Positions 23,182 through 32,628 of a stretch of 59,858 bases of DNA are shown one piece after another. Source of the DNA: Fibrobacter succinogenes (GTDB lineage: Bacteria > Fibrobacterota > Fibrobacteria > Fibrobacterales > Fibrobacteraceae); assembly GCA_902768715.1 (NCBI GenBank), contig CACXMH010000005.1:1-59858 (forward strand). Reading direction: 5' to 3'. The position numbers were made by a program, and so were the translations under genes. The first letter of the stretch is position 1. Each line of letters starts with the position of its first letter. A model generated the notes under the pieces. The model saw only the letters and a list, made by a program, of their open reading frames with translations, ran no database searches and was not told the origin of the DNA.

Positions 23182-25691
23182 TGAGACGCTTCAAATTATT
23201 TCTGATGTCAATGCTCGCCCTTGCGGGAATAAACTTCGGTCAAACCATCGACTTGCAGTTCATCGACGCCCTGGTACCCTGCCTTATCAAGGACGACATG
23301 TTTTCCAGTTCTGATTGTTACGACAAAAACGGCAAAAAAACAATCGTACAGGACCCAAGAGTGAGGCTAAGAGTCATCGATCCGCCTTTTCTGGCGGAAT
23401 CTCGCTTCGGGTTCTATCTGGAGAAACCGTTCTTTATCATAGACGGGATACACCTGAGTACAGACGAAATACGGACCCTGTCGCAGCTGCAAGACGAAAC
23501 AGAGGAATTCGGCATTCCCGAAATGCTTAAATCCCTCGGTTACACTCCCGTACTCGTGCAGTTTACCCACACCGTGACCAGGTCGCTCCAAAAGAACAGC
23601 GATGTCTTGGCAACGCTTTTGGAATACCTGAACGAAAGCAAGGAAATTCCGTTCCCGAACAAGCTGCAAGACGGATTTGTGATTCTGGGAATTAGCCAGG
23701 GCGGCATTATCGGACGTTATGGCGCATACCTGTACGACCACAAAAGAAAAAGCGAAGACGCACCCGTCCGGTTCTTTGCCTCCCTGGATTCTCCCCATCA
23801 GGGGGCAGTCATGCCCCGCGGACTGGTGGCCTCCATCGATTTTTGGGCGAACAAAGCCGAAGTCGCTGCCGCCGAGGCTTTTTACGACTTGATTTCTTCG
23901 CCCGGAGCAAGGGACTTGTTGATTTATGACACCCAGGCAGGAAACACCACCTACACTCCCAAAACCGGTGCCGAAAGGTTCCTTTTCGGAGACTACCGCA
24001 AGGCCGCCGAATACAAGGGTTTTCCCGTTGTGCTGGTAGCACAGGGTCAACTCAAGGGAAAAGACCCGAGCCACAGCAATAAGTATTACGAACTGGAGCG
24101 CCACACGGAGATGCTTTCAAAGGTAATGGGCCGAGCCACCAGTTCCATCAGTTATTCCGCAAACGAAACTGGAACGTATGCCCATAACCGCAAATACGAA
24201 TTCAATACCGATGTCGAAGAAACCACCAACAAGGGAAAAACATCCCTGGATTTTGTCCAGGGCAGCACGTACCCCTTCGCAAAGACATTGTATTCGTCCC
24301 TGCGCGACGGAATGGAAGACGCCCTGCCCAAGAACTGGTCCAAAAAAGTAAAAGTCAAGGGCCTGACGGTCGCAGAAATTCCCCTGAAATCCTACTGGGA
24401 CGACGACACCCTCTACCAGGCCAGCAGTACCTTTATCCCGACAGTAAGCGCCATGGACCTGAAATGCGACGGTGACCTCGCCATCCGCAAGGAATGTGCC
24501 CACAGTCAGTCTTCTGGAGGAATTTCTTTTGAAAGCATTGGAAACAGAAGTACCGCCAAGGCGGCCTACGCCGTAGATCCCAGCCACCCGCGGTATAACG
24601 AAACCATTAGCGGAAGGCATATCGAGTCTCCTTCCAAGGGAGGTAGCATCGACAAGAAGGTTCTATCCGGGATGCAAACCGACATTTGGCGTGTCCTCTG
24701 CGAACTGGCCAAGGCCGATTACAATTTTGCCACGAAACAATTCCGCAACCCGAAACTTGGAGGAATGTTCTCGCCAAGTACGTCCTGCATGGACCAGAGC
24801 AAGATGCCCGACCTCATCAAGAACGGCGGTATCCTCCAGAGCAAAAAGTTCAGCTATGTCCGCTACGATTTCAATACTGCTGAAACAGAACGGAAAAAAG
24901 AGGTTTCCTTTACGCTCCCTGCCGGTTGGCAAAAGACGATGATTGCGGACAACGGCCTGGACGTTCCCCCTTCCAGCGTTTTTGAGGTAGAAGTGAAGGT
25001 GCTTGAACCGAAGAGCAACTGGATGAAGGCTGAGCTCCTGCTGACTCAGAGCAAAAACGGCGGACACCAGGTGCAGTTTGCAGAACAGAACATTCCCCAA
25101 GACGGACTGTTCCACACCATCCGCTGGCAGATGCCCGCCACAGCTGGCGCTCTGAAAAATTTCCGCTGGTTCCGCCTGGTACTGAATTCCAACGGCGGAT
25201 ACGTGACGCTACGTCGTCCGAAGCTCATCACCAACGCCAACAGCTTCGAAGAGGTTCCTCCGGCTATCCCGTCGGCTAAAATCTACCCGAATACAAACTA
25301 CAAGGTTGTCCCCTGGTCCGATACGGTATCCGTCAAGGACTATTCCGACGGTTTGGGCTCTGGAATTTCTATTGACTTCAAATCCAACCTGGACGGAATC
25401 CATTTCGATTTGAAGAAGAACTATTCCATGGATGCCTACAAGAACCTGAATGTGGTTTACTGGCCCGGAACATGCCAGAACACATCCATTTTCTTTGATG
25501 CCAAGTCCAAGAAAAATGTGAATATGGGTAACGGTAGTTTGCAAAATGGGTACGTTAGCAAAAAATTACCTTTGTCTGATCTGGTCAACACCGACATCAC
25601 GCCAAAGCACTCCCTTTCCGCGTCCCGCTTGGGATTGCAGGCGATGAAATCTGGTGAAAAATGTATCATCCATTCTATTACCTTGGAATAG
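23181..25691 (+). CDS. Secreted alpha/beta-hydrolase (lipase/esterase-like) with C-terminal binding-type domains
   Basis: An 836-residue exported enzyme. After a signal peptide (residues 1-20) comes an alpha/beta-hydrolase region with the nucleophile elbow G-I-S-Q-G-G (Ser172), followed by the lipase-like FASLDSPHQGA and later DDDTLYQASSTFIPTVSAMD. The latter matches the acid region of lipase-like proteins I associate with Bacteroidetes, with a His expected further on. From about residue 560 there are two beta-rich regions (FRWFRLVLNSNGG and a final jelly-roll-like segment) that could bind carbohydrate. It is coupled to the upstream gene with GGAGG 8 bases before the ATG. A role in de-esterifying plant cell wall or lipids is inference. 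Confidence 0.75.
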   Translation: MRRFKLFLMSMLALAGINFGQTIDLQFIDALVPCLIKDDMFSSSDCYDKNGKKTIVQDPRVRLRVIDPPFLAESRFGFYLEKPFFIIDGIHLSTDEIRTLSQLQDETEEFGIPEMLKSLGYTPVLVQFTHTVTRSLQKNSDVLATLLEYLNESKEIPFPNKLQDGFVILGISQGGIIGRYGAYLYDHKRKSEDAPVRFFASLDSPHQGAVMPRGLVASIDFWANKAEVAAAEAFYDLISSPGARDLLIYDTQAGNTTYTPKTGAERFLFGDYRKAAEYKGFPVVLVAQGQLKGKDPSHSNKYYELERHTEMLSKVMGRATSSISYSANETGTYAHNRKYEFNTDVEETTNKGKTSLDFVQGSTYPFAKTLYSSLRDGMEDALPKNWSKKVKVKGLTVAEIPLKSYWDDDTLYQASSTFIPTVSAMDLKCDGDLAIRKECAHSQSSGGISFESIGNRSTAKAAYAVDPSHPRYNETISGRHIESPSKGGSIDKKVLSGMQTDIWRVLCELAKADYNFATKQFRNPKLGGMFSPSTSCMDQSKMPDLIKNGGILQSKKFSYVRYDFNTAETERKKEVSFTLPAGWQKTMIADNGLDVPPSSVFEVEVKVLEPKSNWMKAELLLTQSKNGGHQVQFAEQNIPQDGLFHTIRWQMPATAGALKNFRWFRLVLNSNGGYVTLRRPKLITNANSFEEVPPAIPSAKIYPNTNYKVVPWSDTVSVKDYSDGLGSGISIDFKSNLDGIHFDLKKNYSMDAYKNLNVVYWPGTCQNTSIFFDAKSKKNVNMGNGSLQNGYVSKKLPLSDLVNTDITPKHSLSASRLGLQAMKSGEKCIIHSITLE

Positions 25692-25742
25692 TTTGGTTGA
25701 CATTGTTCAAACAAAATAATATCTTCGAAAACTCAAAAAGCG

Positions 25743-25765
25743 GTATCCCCGTGAATCGGGGATAC
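25743..25765. repeat. REP-like palindrome (copy 2)
   Basis: GTATCCCCG, loop TGAAT, CGGGGATAC, with outer AAAGC/GCTTT pairing. It is a diverged member of the REP-like family, placed between the lipase gene and the next lipoprotein gene, and may serve as a terminator or RNA-stabilising stem. Confidence 0.6.
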
Positions 25766-25786
25766 TGCTTTCAAGAAGGAAGAAAA

Positions 25787-26587
25787 ATGAAAAATAAATT
25801 GTTCGCACTTTTACTTTTATCTGTTTTCCCGTGTCTGCTTGCTGGTTGCAACAAGCCCTTTATGCAGACTATGGGGTCTAATCCTATGCCGGTCTATCAT
25901 GAACCGAGATGGTCCGGAGAGCAACAGAAGAATTTTACCGTGGGTGCCGATTTATTCGGGACTCCCTATGGAATAGGCCAAAATGTGGACGAGGTTCATT
26001 CTGTAGGTGGCGACCTCTTTGCGCAGTACCGTTTTTTGGACGTGTTCTTTGTGCAGGCGGCATTTGCGGGGAATGGTGGTTCTCTGAAGTTCGACTGTAA
26101 CGACAAGCCCTGTTGGGACACATACCGCAAATGGATGAATTCCAAAGAGGGTGAAGATTCCTATTCGTTCTGGTCCTTGCAAGAACAGGCGATGCTTGGG
26201 CTAGATTTCAACGTAGGTTTCGTTCAGTTCGGTTTTGGCGGAGGAATCATGCTGTCTCAATCCAACGGCGATTACGAAGACAAACGTAAGGAACTAGCAG
26301 AAGGAGATATCATAGACAGCCCTGCAGAAAGTTCCGAAATATTCCCCATGGTAGGAATCTGGTATGGTTTCAACCTTGGGAAAAATGCTCGCTATGGGGT
26401 TATCAAAAATGAAACGAGGATGGTCTTTTCGGACAATTTGTCCAATGAAGGTTCTTTGGTCGGCGGCGTAGGATCAGCCATGTCCATGGGCCTTGTCTAT
26501 TACCATCCGTCTGGATTCCACGGCGGGGTGTCCACCTCGACGCAGGAGTTGTTCTCCATAAGCCTGGGCAAGACTTTCTCTTTTTAA
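25787..26587 (+). CDS. Hypothetical lipoprotein, barrel-like
   Basis: A 266-residue lipoprotein: the hydrophobic signal ends in LLAGC (Cys near residue 22). The mature part is Gly- and aromatic-rich with alternating strand patterns (LDVFFVQAAFAGNGG, VGFVQFGFGGGIML, GLVYYHPSGFHGG) and ends ISLGKTFSF, a terminal Phe as seen in outer-membrane barrels. The ATG at 25787 follows AAGGAAG; the frame itself opens upstream through the REP-like palindrome. It is followed by a bidirectional terminator. No function can be assigned. Confidence 0.75.
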   Translation: MKNKLFALLLLSVFPCLLAGCNKPFMQTMGSNPMPVYHEPRWSGEQQKNFTVGADLFGTPYGIGQNVDEVHSVGGDLFAQYRFLDVFFVQAAFAGNGGSLKFDCNDKPCWDTYRKWMNSKEGEDSYSFWSLQEQAMLGLDFNVGFVQFGFGGGIMLSQSNGDYEDKRKELAEGDIIDSPAESSEIFPMVGIWYGFNLGKNARYGVIKNETRMVFSDNLSNEGSLVGGVGSAMSMGLVYYHPSGFHGGVSTSTQELFSISLGKTFSF

Positions 26588-26627: not shown

Positions 26628-26661
26628 AAAAAGTTCCAGAAGAATTTCTGGAACTTTTTTT
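26628..26661. terminator. Bidirectional terminator
   Basis: AAAAAGTTCCAG, loop AAGAATTT, CTGGAACTTTTTTT. The A-run and T-run on either side of an 11-bp stem allow termination from both directions: the lipoprotein gene on the plus strand and the peptide/cellulase unit on the minus strand. Confidence 0.85.
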
Positions 26662-26683: not shown

Positions 26684-26818
26684 CTAGTTGTATGGGCCGC
26701 ATTCCTCACCACACTCCGGAGGATCGCTTTCGTTTAGCAAATTCGTCGTATGAACAAGTTCCACCTCAATCATCTCGGGTGCGGCATAGTCTTTTTTTTG
26801 TTTCTTTTCAATATTCAT
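26684..26818 (-). CDS. 44-residue peptide coupled to the cellulase gene
   Basis: A small open frame below usual size limits. It begins 12 bases after the cellulase stop codon, and its Shine-Dalgarno site (TAGGAG) overlaps that stop, so translation is coupled. The peptide starts with a lysine-rich head (MNIEKKQKKD), has a central YAAPEMIEVELV segment, LLNES, and a tail with two cysteines (PPECGEECGPYN). The layout (basic head, Y-x-x-P, short hydrophobic part, Cys/Gly tail) recalls small precursor-like peptides of the Bacteroidetes, but I know no family name for it. It is followed at once by the terminator. Function unknown; regulator, chaperone-like partner or secreted peptide are all possible. 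Confidence 0.6.
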   Translation of the reverse strand: MNIEKKQKKDYAAPEMIEVELVHTTNLLNESDPPECGEECGPYN

Positions 26819-26829
26819 GAGTTTTTCTC

Positions 26830-29800
26830 CTACTTAATAATCTTCTTCTTGCCGTAGTAAACACCGCGAGCGGTGGGCTTACCGTTAAGCTTGCGACCCT
26901 TCAGGTCGTAATTCTGCAGCATCTTGAACTCGCCGGTGCGGGTATTGAGGCCGCCGATAACCGTCTTGCTCTCCTCGCCAGTGGCGCTGCGGTTCACGAC
27001 CACCACATCCATGTAATCGGGGAGCGGTTCGGCACCGACATAGGCATAGCCGGTAGATTTGCCAGCAGAGTTACCATCCGGGTCATATATCATATAGGCG
27101 CGGAACGGCGTAATCCAGGCTCCTGCGGCCGCCTTGACAAACTGGCCTACTTTTACCTTGTCCGTTTCCTTTCCGGAGAATCCATAGACTCGGCCCAGGT
27201 CAGGATGATTTCCATCCCAGACAATCTTGCTGAGGGTCCCGCGGAATTCCCAGCCGTCTTTGCTCCGGACAGCGGTATTGGCCCCTTCCGTCGGCTGGAT
27301 TACCATGGTGTTGCCATGGAATACAAGGTTTCCTTCACTCTCCAGCTCCACCATATAGGGCGTGTAGGCGCTGAGTTCACCGTTTACTTCTGTCATCTCG
27401 ACCTGCTTCTTTCCAGATGAATCGAGACCGATGCCGCTGAACGCCAGAACACTGGACACCCCTTCAATGGCATTTCTGTTGATGCTGAAGGGCAGCGTGA
27501 TGGTAGAATACCCGCTAGCCGAGAAGGTTCGGTTGAAGATTACGGTATCGACTTCTATGGCATTCGGGATATTCACTCCATCCGGATCGTCGAAGGCTCC
27601 ATCGATAGTAGCCGTCTTCTTCCCGTTAGCCTCGCTAATGGCAATAGCACCATAGTGGGCAGTGGAGTCGTAGGTTGCCGTATAGACCTGCTCCTGGGTC
27701 ACTTGCGTAACCAGGGGACTCCAGCCACTGAATTCGTAGGTGTATATCCCCGCAGGGTCCCTAGTGGGATCATCCGGAGTCACAATGTCCGCACCGTATT
27801 GATAGAGCGTACCAGCCTTGACCGGATCTCCATTGTAATCCAGGAAGGTGATCATGTAGTTGCGGTCATATTCGTTGAACACGGCCACCAAGGTCGTATC
27901 CTGTGACAACACATCAAACTCCCCGATATCGCTCCCATCGGCATAGGTCCACTTCACGAACTCGAAGGTCTTTGCAGCCGTCGCGGGCATAGTGGCAAAT
28001 CCAGATGCAAGAGAATCGATATTAGACCCGTACAAGACCGTCTTTGCCGCAGGAACGGTCGCCCCTGCAGCAGCCGTGAAGGTGACCGTATAGAACCTTG
28101 GGGAAGCCTCAAAGATGGGCGTATAATAGAGATCGCGTGTCACGACAGTCTGATCCGTAAAGGCAGGATACCAGCCTGTGAAGGTATATGTGAACTCTTC
28201 GGTAGGCGCCTTGGTGGGGGTTGTCGGTGCAATGCCGGACACATTGGTGCCGTAATTGTACATTCCCGATTCAGGCAATTCATTATACTCGTCATCGGAA
28301 AAGCGCACATAATACTGGACCTTTGCAGAATCATAGATAGCCGTATAATCGGCATTCCCAGACACCTGCGTAACAACCGTGGGAGTCCAACCGGTAAAGG
28401 AATAGGACCATTCCGCCGTTGAGGGCCTATCAGGATCTGAATACACATCAAGTATGTCTCCATCGGCAAGGTAATCCTGATGCAACACAGAGCCGTCGTA
28501 ATCCTTCCAGGTGATAATGCTCAAGTCCGTATAGACGGCCTCGTACACAACATCAGCTGTAACCGTGGCAAGCCCCGGGTTCCAGCCGGCGAACTTTTCG
28601 CTCGCAGATTTGTCCGGGACATTCGGGACATCGATATCCGTAACGAGAGTCCCGTAATCATAGCACGTTTCGGCTTTCAACTCAGTATTATCATCATCCA
28701 CAAAGGTAATGCAGTACTGTTTCTTGGTTTCATTGAACACTGCCGTAAAGGTGGCAGGACCCGTCACCGTTACGCCCGTCGTGTCGGGGTTCCAACCAGC
28801 GAAGCTATAGGTGTATTCATCCGTCGGATCCTTGAAGGGAGCTTCCGGAGCAAAATCCGCAATGGACGTGCCATATTCCTCCCAGGAGGCATCGTAATAG
28901 GAGCCATCGTCCAACAGGAAGGTGATTTCATAGTAGCGGAGGCTAGAGTCGAACACGGCCTCATAGGTCATATTGTCCGTCAGCGGCTCGCCCCACCACG
29001 ACAATTCAGGGCTCCAGTCACCCGTAAACCAGTAGTCGTACTGTGTCGTGGAGGCCCTGGTGGGGTTGAGTTCCGGAACATTTATGTTGGAATTCTCGGC
29101 CAAGGTATCTATGAAGAGGGTGTCATCCCCGTTCTTAAACGTCACAGTGTAGTACGGTGTCTCGTCAAGACCCACGCAGCGGATGTTGTCGATGGCGAGG
29201 GAATCGTGCATGCCTGTCGGGCCCTCGACACGCCAGTCGAATCCGCTGGCACGTCTCATGATGGTATCCAGAGAAACGCATTTTCCCCAGCCCTCATCGC
29301 AATACGGCTGACGCAGGCTACCCATAGGAATGGACACGGTCTGCCAGGAATCGCTACGGTTCTCCACCGAGAAGGAGTGGTAGTTCCAACCCAGATCGAG
29401 CATATTGTTGATTTCCCAGCTGAACTTTATGCGGAAGCTATGGGCCGCACCCTTGTAGTCGTAGCGCACCTCGGTGCAATGGGTCAGATTCATGTTGTCA
29501 AAGCTCATGGTAACAGAAGCGTTGGGATCATAGCCTATATCCACGGAGTCTTTCTCGTCTTCGTCCCAATCCATTCCATTCAGGTAGAAATTGTGCTGGA
29601 TAGCATAGGAAGACTGGTTTCCGCGCACAAGCTTAATCGTATCCAAAGTTGAAGCAACCGATTCATACGTCCAATCACCCCAAGTCTCTGTCCAAAGGGG
29701 CGTGTAGTCGCCATCTTCAAAGTCATCCACCAGTTCCGTGTTAGTAGTGGGGTCTTTCGGTTCAGGCAACTCGAAAGGAGGATCCTGCAGCACGCATTCC

Positions 29801-32553
29801 ACATCGTCAATATAGAGGTAGTCATAATTGGACTGGTCATACACTATAAAGCGAATGTCGGTAATCTCGTCAAGCGGATAATTGTCCCCCATGGAGACAT
29901 AGACGGTCTTCCAATCCGACTTTGAAGGATAGTCGTTCACATTCCTCAAATCATCATCATCATTATTCATGCGGACCAAAAGGCTATGGGCAGCACCCTT
30001 GTAGCTGTACCTCAAGGTGTAGCAGCCTTCCAGATTGGGAACCATAACATCTATGGTCGCCTCACCATAGACCTGTGTCGTATCAGTCGTGATACCCACC
30101 AAAGCGGCACCATATGTTCCAGAGTTAGCGGCATCAGTCAAGACATAATCATAGCAGTCCGCTCCACAGGAGGTATTCCCAATCCCCATCTTACCCCATG
30201 CATATATATAGTCTCCTGTTGACTTTTTCTCACCGTCGTTTTCGAAGTCGGCAACCAGATAATCCTCGTAAGAGACAGAGCTGCTGCTTTCTTCCGCACT
30301 GCTGGAACTTTCTGGCGCGCCGTCTATTATGCACCTTACGTCATCTACATAGAAACTTTCGCCATTGGCAGGGGCCTGGACTTCCCACTGCACATTAATG
30401 GGCTTGCTTAAATCAACACCTTTCGCAACAGCCTCGTTCATATCGTAGGTTACCGTTGTCCAACCCGACGCAAACGCCATAGTATTATCAGACACTACAT
30501 AATTAGCCGTAGCATCATTTTCAAAGTTATAGACCGAGAACTTATGGGACAGGCCCTTGTACTTGTACTGCACGGTTGCACAGCCATCCAAGTTAGAAGT
30601 ATGGACACCGACGCCGGCGTCACCATTCTCGCCTGACACAACGTTCAACGCCGTACCGACAACGCCCTGAGTCGGATCATTGACGGTTTTCTGATATTCC
30701 CAGCAAGAGGCCTCTTTGCACCAGGACGGCTGCAGCCATTCATTACTAAAGGACCAATCCTCATTGGCATAGACATAGTCATATCCACCATATTTGTTCC
30801 AATCCGAGCGGCCACCGCCTTGGAAGTCACTAATCAAATACGCCTGTGCCACAATAGAACTTGCCGGGTCTCCGCATTGCACGTCGTCAACAAGGAGGCT
30901 ATCACCACTGGACGGACCTGTCACCTGCCACTGAATAGTAAACGGAGCGTCAAGGTCAGCGGGATCTATGTCGGTCAAATCAAAGGTCATTTTGACCCAG
31001 TCGCCGCTTTCTGTAACAGATTGTGCGACCCTGTCACCGAGCGTAAAGCCATGGGCAAGCCCCCTGAACCTGTAAGAGAACGTTTCGCAGCCCTTCAAGG
31101 ATTCAACATGGACGCCATAGCCGGCCCAACCGTTGTTGCCAGTAACCACGCCCACGACACCACCGACATTGGAGCCATCTACAAGGAACGTACTCTCACC
31201 ATTATTGCCGTTAGTCCAGTCGCCCTCCTTGCCACTTTCATAGTAGTAGTGATATTCATTAGCACTGTTGTTTCCATCAAAGTCGTCAATCACGTAATCA
31301 TGACTGATAACCTCGTCTTCATAGATATTGTCACCAAAGTCATCACCAGAATCGTCAAAATCGGGATCGTCAGCCGGAACAGCGGGCAGGTCTACATAAC
31401 TTGCGCATTGGGAATATGTCATAGCAGAAAGTCCGTTAAAGACATTGGCATTTACCCACTCACCACTGGCAGAATAGGTCCAGTTAGCAGGAGATGTGTT
31501 ATCTACGTCGAAGTCGGCAAAGTACTCGCTATTTTCGGCCCCATCCTTGGTCATATTCCTACCTGCGTTCCAGTTAGCCGATGAAAGTTTCTTCAAGTTC
31601 ATCCAGGTTTGCCACTGGGGATTGTTCGCCATGCTGGGAGCGCCATCGCCGCCATAACCCACAGTTCCCCATTCTGTCACAAACACGGAAAGTCCGGCCC
31701 CAAGCGCGCTGTTCACGTCGGCCGACATCGAATTAAAATCATGAGCTTCAGTGCCATCGTTCTTACCCGCATAGTAATGGAACGTATAGGCAATATTATC
31801 ATAACCGGTAATCGCATTTCCAACGACCGCACCGGGATTTCCAGACCAACTGGGAGTTCCCACCACAATCAGGTTGTTGGAATAGCGGCGGATAATGGGA
31901 ATCACCTCGTTGGCGTACGCCTTGATTTCTGGCCAAGTAATCATCGTGCAATTGGAACTGTTGCCATGGCCCTGACCCGCCTTGCATATGGGTTCATTGT
32001 AAATTTCAAAAATCACATTGGGATAAGAGCCCCATTTTTTCGCCTGAATCTTGAAGAATTCCTTGGCACGACCTACATTGTCCACCGCCGTGTGGGAGTG
32101 ATAGTCGATAATCACGTAAATATCTTGCTCAATAGCCGCCTGGACCGTCTCGTCCAGCAAGTCCTGATAATATTCAGTCTTGCCATTAATAAAGTAATGT
32201 CCATTTCCCCAGCCCTGGTCGTCTACCGCCATGGCGGCACGGATTACCTGGATGCCCTGCTGGCTTACCATTCCCGTAATGACATCATTTCTCCAAAAGC
32301 GGTTCTGGCTTTTTTCATTGCTCCAGAACAGGCTCATGCCCTTTACCTGAACCTCGTTGCCGCTGGCGTTAGAATAAGCATTACAACTGCCATACACACG
32401 ACCTTCGTTTTGCGAGTTTATGCCCGTCATTAACATGCCGTACTGGCTTACCGGCCCTGTGCGCAGGGGCGTGATGTCAGCGTACGCGGTGGAGAATACG
32501 CCCAGGGCAAACGTACCCAGGGCTACCAGTTTGGGAAGGCGGAGTTTTAGCAT
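26830..32553 (-). CDS. Giant secreted multidomain GH5 cellulase
   Basis: A 1907-residue exported endoglucanase. Order: signal peptide (1-25); GH5 catalytic domain (about 30-385) with VIIDYHSH, acid/base Glu in YNEP (near 190) and nucleophile Glu in TEWG; four carbohydrate-binding-like modules, each opening D-F-(D/Q/E) and closing with a DDV-x-C type motif; a SSSSAEESSSS linker; seven InlB/Flg_new-type beta repeats (ITF...Y.F.GW.P...); and a C-terminal region ending YDLKGRKLNGKP...GVYYGKKKIIK, which resembles type IX type A sorting tails. The start at 32553 follows GAGG and gives the signal peptide. It is paralogous to the second cellulase downstream. It hydrolyses beta-1,4-glucan by family. 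Confidence 0.92.
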   Translation of the reverse strand: MLKLRLPKLVALGTFALGVFSTAYADITPLRTGPVSQYGMLMTGINSQNEGRVYGSCNAYSNASGNEVQVKGMSLFWSNEKSQNRFWRNDVITGMVSQQGIQVIRAAMAVDDQGWGNGHYFINGKTEYYQDLLDETVQAAIEQDIYVIIDYHSHTAVDNVGRAKEFFKIQAKKWGSYPNVIFEIYNEPICKAGQGHGNSSNCTMITWPEIKAYANEVIPIIRRYSNNLIVVGTPSWSGNPGAVVGNAITGYDNIAYTFHYYAGKNDGTEAHDFNSMSADVNSALGAGLSVFVTEWGTVGYGGDGAPSMANNPQWQTWMNLKKLSSANWNAGRNMTKDGAENSEYFADFDVDNTSPANWTYSASGEWVNANVFNGLSAMTYSQCASYVDLPAVPADDPDFDDSGDDFGDNIYEDEVISHDYVIDDFDGNNSANEYHYYYESGKEGDWTNGNNGESTFLVDGSNVGGVVGVVTGNNGWAGYGVHVESLKGCETFSYRFRGLAHGFTLGDRVAQSVTESGDWVKMTFDLTDIDPADLDAPFTIQWQVTGPSSGDSLLVDDVQCGDPASSIVAQAYLISDFQGGGRSDWNKYGGYDYVYANEDWSFSNEWLQPSWCKEASCWEYQKTVNDPTQGVVGTALNVVSGENGDAGVGVHTSNLDGCATVQYKYKGLSHKFSVYNFENDATANYVVSDNTMAFASGWTTVTYDMNEAVAKGVDLSKPINVQWEVQAPANGESFYVDDVRCIIDGAPESSSSAEESSSSVSYEDYLVADFENDGEKKSTGDYIYAWGKMGIGNTSCGADCYDYVLTDAANSGTYGAALVGITTDTTQVYGEATIDVMVPNLEGCYTLRYSYKGAAHSLLVRMNNDDDDLRNVNDYPSKSDWKTVYVSMGDNYPLDEITDIRFIVYDQSNYDYLYIDDVECVLQDPPFELPEPKDPTTNTELVDDFEDGDYTPLWTETWGDWTYESVASTLDTIKLVRGNQSSYAIQHNFYLNGMDWDEDEKDSVDIGYDPNASVTMSFDNMNLTHCTEVRYDYKGAAHSFRIKFSWEINNMLDLGWNYHSFSVENRSDSWQTVSIPMGSLRQPYCDEGWGKCVSLDTIMRRASGFDWRVEGPTGMHDSLAIDNIRCVGLDETPYYTVTFKNGDDTLFIDTLAENSNINVPELNPTRASTTQYDYWFTGDWSPELSWWGEPLTDNMTYEAVFDSSLRYYEITFLLDDGSYYDASWEEYGTSIADFAPEAPFKDPTDEYTYSFAGWNPDTTGVTVTGPATFTAVFNETKKQYCITFVDDDNTELKAETCYDYGTLVTDIDVPNVPDKSASEKFAGWNPGLATVTADVVYEAVYTDLSIITWKDYDGSVLHQDYLADGDILDVYSDPDRPSTAEWSYSFTGWTPTVVTQVSGNADYTAIYDSAKVQYYVRFSDDEYNELPESGMYNYGTNVSGIAPTTPTKAPTEEFTYTFTGWYPAFTDQTVVTRDLYYTPIFEASPRFYTVTFTAAAGATVPAAKTVLYGSNIDSLASGFATMPATAAKTFEFVKWTYADGSDIGEFDVLSQDTTLVAVFNEYDRNYMITFLDYNGDPVKAGTLYQYGADIVTPDDPTRDPAGIYTYEFSGWSPLVTQVTQEQVYTATYDSTAHYGAIAISEANGKKTATIDGAFDDPDGVNIPNAIEVDTVIFNRTFSASGYSTITLPFSINRNAIEGVSSVLAFSGIGLDSSGKKQVEMTEVNGELSAYTPYMVELESEGNLVFHGNTMVIQPTEGANTAVRSKDGWEFRGTLSKIVWDGNHPDLGRVYGFSGKETDKVKVGQFVKAAAGAWITPFRAYMIYDPDGNSAGKSTGYAYVGAEPLPDYMDVVVVNRSATGEESKTVIGGLNTRTGEFKMLQNYDLKGRKLNGKPTARGVYYGKKKIIK

Positions 32554-32628
32554 AGAACCTCGCAAGGCAGATTCGTTAATTTGTAACAAGTTAATACAAA
32601 TAAAATATACTCTAAAAAAACGCTTTTA

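Follow-up and report, generated by a model that had tools for sequence, protein, structure and literature searches.

A short gene behind a large Fibrobacter cellulase gene probably encodes a RiPP-type precursor peptide served by a shared maturation cassette

We analyzed a 59,858-nt stretch of DNA from Fibrobacter succinogenes (the window), in which a very short open reading frame lies directly behind a large one, both on the minus strand. The large frame (26830-32589) encodes a secreted GH5 cellulase (PF00150, E = 1.9e-43) of 1919 aa when counted from the first possible start, a TTG; an ATG further in is the likelier start. Orthologous cellulases differ widely in length, with 1919 aa in the window, 2281 aa at L047:2379-9224 and 1596 aa at L048:9177-13967, apparently reflecting a varying number of internal repeat modules. 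The short frame (26684-26818, stop codon included) has 44 codons and translates as MNIEKKQKKDYAAPEMIEVELVHTTNLLNESDPPECGEECGPYN. A Shine-Dalgarno sequence, AGGAG, can be read at 26827-26831, where it overlaps the cellulase stop codon TAG (26830-26832) and stands 8 nt from the ATG of the peptide frame. Since the gap between the two frames is only 11 nt, translational coupling of the peptide to the cellulase is plausible. On the same strand, a terminator composed of a 14-bp hairpin and a U run (26628-26659; -19.1 kcal/mol, z = -6.45 against shuffled sequences) begins 24 nt past the peptide stop codon. It has A/T runs on both flanks and is probably shared with the convergent gene at 25661-26587. 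An earlier note on this DNA had described a peptide frame whose Shine-Dalgarno site overlaps the stop codon of a large cellulase gene and which is followed directly by a terminator, and each of these elements was found as described.

A frame of only 44 codons, whose product matched no family in Pfam or NCBIfam, could be a chance ORF or a read-through by-product 3′ of the cellulase gene. We give this reading practically no credence, as it is refuted by conservation. A paralogue in the same genome, at C56:3683-3817, shares 56% identity with the window peptide (E = 4.5e-8), and a search with a four-sequence profile found five family members in this genome. Orthologues in two other genomes are 91-93% identical and syntenic, lying behind the same cellulase gene. 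The three pairwise comparisons among the orthologues gave NG86 dN/dS values of approximately 0.16, 0.26 and 0.37, which are indicative values given that only 8-19 nucleotide differences underlie them. The frame at 26684-26818 is therefore a genuine conserved gene, with substitution ratios that speak for purifying selection. The earlier note had held the peptide to be deliberately placed, an idea that it would have given up had the frame lacked conservation in related strains and evolved with a dN/dS near 1; conservation and ratios below 0.4 instead argue for more than chance placement.

To describe the wider family we relied on profile searches. The four-sequence profile detected members in 37 of 41 genomes of the genus at E ≤ 1, and a 34-sequence profile detected them in 74 of 80 Fibrobacter genomes at E ≤ 0.001. 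Outside Fibrobacter, the latter profile matched one genome of another genus, with 168 genomes of the phylum searched. Family members follow the pattern KKxYxxPEM...LLxxS, after which comes a short, variable acidic tail. The tyrosine and proline corresponding to Y11 and P14 of the window peptide are invariant in 34 aligned members, and most aligned members have M or L two residues past the proline. The serine of LLxxS is conserved in 53 of 56 aligned members and is mostly preceded by G, C, A or S; in 50 of the 56, it lies 20 residues from the tyrosine. The peptide has the basic head, YxxP and CxxxC pointed out in the earlier note, which put weight on the cysteines. CxxxC was seen in the three orthologues only, however, and the elements conserved across the family are KKxYxxPEM and LLxxS. 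We thus rejected the idea of a disulfide peptide.

On this basis, the window peptide can be divided into a proposed leader, residues 1-31 (MNIEKKQKKDYAAPEMIEVELVHTTNLLNES; 26726-26818), which corresponds to the conserved half of the family, and a proposed core, DPPECGEECGPYN (26687-26725), which corresponds to the variable acidic tail. The boundary would fall at S31, the last residue of LLNES (26726-26740), the local form of LLxxS and a candidate cleavage and/or modification site. With pattern-fixed columns disregarded, any two members agree on average at 25% of leader positions, against 10% of the first eight core positions. Cores have a median length of 18 residues and a mean net charge of -2.8. 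A conserved leader joined to a variable core is what one expects of the precursor of a leader-guided RiPP.

These genes also have recurrent neighbors. The C-terminal part of the cellulase (26833-27141), ending in YDLKGRKLNGKPTARGVYYGKKKIIK, is a domain (CTD; profile A2, E = 9.2e-41) common to the proteins linked to the peptides. Across 12 genomes of good quality, 79 of the 89 peptide copies lay on the same strand within 500 nt 3′ of a gene matching profile A2, while ten had no adjoining CTD gene. The distance from a CTD gene to the nearest peptide gene in these genomes ranged from 5 to 88 nt, and 61 of 82 CTD genes carried a peptide (43 a single copy and 18 two copies). This pairing cannot be coincidence, because a genome of about 3.4 Mb has only a handful of CTD genes. 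The search for small frames behind large proteins with a shared C-terminal tail, suggested in the earlier note, thus identified a recurrent arrangement. For about one CTD gene in four no peptide was detected (e.g., G000:C4:8035-9555), and some of these genes are followed immediately by a second CTD gene of the same orientation.

Peptide-linked proteins include GLUG and List_Bact repeat proteins in addition to the GH5 cellulase. The same peptide family thus occurs behind many unrelated large proteins, and also as tandem pairs, so the cellulase context is not conserved in the family. This led us to reject the suggestion that the peptide is a sensor of cellulase translation. The product may be a secretion partner, another suggestion of the earlier note, given how closely the peptides are tied to a single class of CTD.

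T9SS C-terminal domains (TIGR04183/BTD-Fpm-1) have been reported in F. succinogenes (PMC6851124). The peptide-linked CTDs resemble the C-terminal domains of type IX secretion in being basic C-terminal tails on large secreted enzymes, with the form DLxGRxL...GxYYxxGKKxIVK. They differ in giving no match to TIGR04183, either for the cellulase or for ten CTDs. An AlphaFold model of the CTD was of low confidence (pLDDT 51). In view of the missing TIGR04183 match and the poor model, we do not call the CTD a T9SS signal despite its type IX-like appearance.

One peptide copy per genome usually heads an operon of putative maturation genes. In several genomes the order is CTD protein, peptide (single or as a tandem pair), PF14907 nucleotidyltransferase, HprK-like protein, S24/S26-like peptidase, PqqD protein and ABC exporter, and the operon is sometimes split. 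In one genome (G004), the sole peptide lies in the full operon behind the sole CTD protein (L089). In the window's own genome the machinery is divided between contig C4, which carries a CTD protein, a peptide, the nucleotidyltransferase, the HprK-like protein and the peptidase, and contig C7, which carries PqqD and the ABC exporter. The window copy is unlinked to these genes, and we therefore assume that its product would be processed in trans; a single machine may face up to 13 precursors per genome. A cassette at L091:6971-9248 is headed by two tandem PF14907 genes, with a peptide before them and no CTD protein. Second or third PF14907 copies also occur in several Fibrobacter genomes (L057, L080, L081, L083, L086 and L078), away from recognized peptide and CTD genes.

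Assignment of the cassette proteins was based on family matches (PF14907, E = 1e-44; PF05402 PqqD, E = 7e-14; PF00717, E = 2e-5; and ABC_membrane/ABC_tran), on conserved motifs and on structural models. The PqqD protein has 89 aa. In the HprK-like protein the P-loop GKSGTGKST is invariant in 36 homologues. Its best NCBIfam match is ScmC (E = 2e-8), which falls below the cut-off, as do HprK-related matches below theirs. Its structural model was of high confidence (pLDDT 95), and PEPCK and HprK folds were the only matches with E < 0.001 among those listed; the predicted fold and intact P-loop are those of the HPr kinase superfamily. Blocks VNGRSMLPFI, HRIV and MGDGN are retained in the peptidase-like protein and, by our own reading, resemble the motifs of Ser-His signal peptidases.

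The cassette and the peptides also tend to be present or absent together. A single copy of PqqD is present in 37 of 41 genomes, with a weak match in a 38th (G032). Peptides and PqqD are both missing in G001 and G014, and G032 is similar apart from its one weak PqqD match. PF14907 was found in 22 of the 24 genomes examined, the two without it being again G001 and G014. Exceptions were G018, which has peptides and no PqqD, and G040, which has PqqD and no detectable peptides; both are draft assemblies. Co-occurrence of peptides and PqqD gave a Fisher p-value of 0.0015 if the weak G032 match is counted as an absence and 0.021 otherwise, values that serve as a guide only, since the genomes are related. 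The peptides are thus both co-encoded and co-occurring with an RRE protein and with modifying and export genes, as expected of RiPP precursors.

Because the family combines a conserved YxxP leader and a variable core with a linked set of PqqD, kinase, nucleotidyltransferase, peptidase and ABC exporter genes, we consider it likely that the ORF, co-transcribed with the gene of a large secreted enzyme, encodes a RiPP-type precursor peptide that shared machinery trims, modifies and exports. The earlier note had listed a precursor peptide among its suggestions, and it is this one that gained ground. Alternatively, the peptide may serve the adjoining CTD protein in unmodified form, as a small chaperone, anchor or aid to secretion, with the PqqD/ABC cassette a mere neighbor. 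The position of most copies (79 of 89) directly 3′ of a CTD gene would fit such a role, as would the co-transcription, and probable translational coupling, of CTD gene and peptide. However, the cassette genes themselves lie 3′ of peptides in the operon and co-occur with them, a conserved leader with a variable core is unlike a binder of a conserved domain, and there are both CTD genes without a peptide and peptides in tandem pairs. We therefore regard an unmodified helper as improbable.

If the peptide is a RiPP-type precursor, its maturation can be sketched as follows. PqqD would bind the KKxYxxPEM leader and present the peptide in trans; in the window peptide, the proposed recognition element is YAAP (26777-26788), a choice that follows from the invariance of Y11 and P14, from the co-occurrence and co-encoding of PqqD, and from analogy with the B1 proteins of lasso peptide clusters. 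The HprK-like kinase may then phosphorylate a serine or threonine, either the conserved S31 or a residue of the core, and the PF14907 enzyme may add a nucleotidyl or sugar group to the phosphate, in the manner of its relative that acts on pseudomycoidin, a lasso peptide. Cleavage near LLxxS would fall to the S24/S26-like Ser-His peptidase, and export of the acidic core to the ABC protein. As to the exported product, we favor the guess that the neighboring surface protein is its target or its partner.

Lasso clusters encode a PqqD-like B1 protein that binds the leader, a homologue of HPr kinase that phosphorylates a serine, and a PF14907-like protein, PsmN, that adds hexoses to the phosphate (PMC8498205, PMC7533575). 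The clusters of paeninodin and pseudomycoidin comprise a PadeA-like precursor, PqqD-like B1, a B2 protease, a C cyclase, an HPr-like kinase K, a PF14907 protein N and an ABC exporter. The Fibrobacter system shares with them the YxxP leader (the family has the YxxP(L) element of paeninodin-family lasso peptides), the PqqD protein, the HPr-kinase homologue, the nucleotidyltransferase and the ABC exporter. One may thus ask whether it makes a true lasso peptide, in which a macrolactam synthetase closes the core before phosphorylation and glycosylation as in paeninodin and pseudomycoidin. Two of 34 members do match the paeninodin-family (PadeA) precursor model NF033524 (best E = 0.00067); this resemblance is a weak lead only, because ten peptides, including that of the window, gave no match when rescanned against NCBIfam. 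Moreover, the B2 transglutaminase-like leader peptidase (PF13471) gave no match over the cut-off in 13 genomes, an S24/S26-like peptidase standing in its stead, and no Asn-synthetase-like cyclase was noticed beside the cassettes in the neighborhoods inspected. Lasso leaders have Thr at the penultimate position; if the Fibrobacter peptides are indeed cut at the proposed site, they would differ here too, as the conserved serine mostly follows G, C, A or S. The Fibrobacter precursors are also scattered behind CTD proteins. Given the absence of the B2 peptidase family from the 13 genomes searched, we rejected a canonical lasso peptide system, and a true lasso peptide appears very unlikely.

Another point of comparison is the SynChlorMet cassette, which combines a PqqD-like protein with radical SAM enzymes. 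The closest NCBIfam model of the kinase-like protein, ScmC, belongs to this cassette, and in both systems a PqqD-like protein lies alongside. Unlike SynChlorMet, the Fibrobacter cassette has a nucleotidyltransferase and an S24/S26-like peptidase, and we noticed no radical SAM gene in it. We found no description of the combination of peptide, CTD and cassette in the open-licence literature, and a prior account may exist elsewhere.

The cassette extends beyond Fibrobacter. In a scan of named genomes, rumen Prevotella, Bacteroidaceae and other Bacteroidales proved to carry its PqqD protein (54-75% identity) with the same neighbors. Of 12 such genomes, 11 also hold family peptides, in which LLAGS is frequent, and several of these lie 10-100 nt behind proteins with similar tails (e.g., L215, L216, L220, L223, L224, L226, L237, L238 and L241). 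Between Fibrobacter and rumen Bacteroidaceae/Prevotella bins, PqqD proteins are up to 75% identical (L130-L209), which suggests recent transfer or, in some metagenome assemblies, misbinning. Two of the Bacteroidales records are named Prevotella strains, khp7 and Tc2-24. Judging from sequence comparison, the spread of the cassette is most simply explained by horizontal transfer among rumen bacteria, with misbinned contigs possible in single Bacteroidales cases.

What the mature product does can be proposed with less confidence. That the peptides recur beside CTD proteins suggests that they act as partners of these proteins. Tentatively, Fibrobacter and rumen Bacteroidales may share a hitherto undescribed maturation system for phospho- or phosphoglyco-modified acidic peptides. 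Each such peptide, encoded by the final cistron behind the gene of one large surface enzyme or adhesin, would be dedicated to that protein as its anchor, cap or ligand. It is also possible, though again doubtful, that the product is an exported antimicrobial or signaling RiPP and that the CTD link merely provides co-expression on plant fiber. Bacteriocin and pheromone families typically show multiple copies, short variable cores, a common leader and a single export machine, and the spread across rumen Fibrobacter and Prevotella would agree with such a role. However, no immunity or receptor gene was recognized adjoining the precursors, and the link is to one type of CTD rather than to any fiber-induced gene.

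These results place dozens of small Fibrobacter and rumen Prevotella frames in a function class that can be tested. They tie peptide-modification enzymes (HPr-kinase-like, PF14907 nucleotidyltransferase and PqqD) to surface proteins that degrade plant fiber, and they describe a layout, one single-copy machine with many scattered precursors, that would tend to be overlooked when RiPPs are mined by gene cluster. How Fibrobacter cellulases are attached to the cell surface is a question of long standing, and a co-encoded, modified peptide would be a new candidate player in this attachment.
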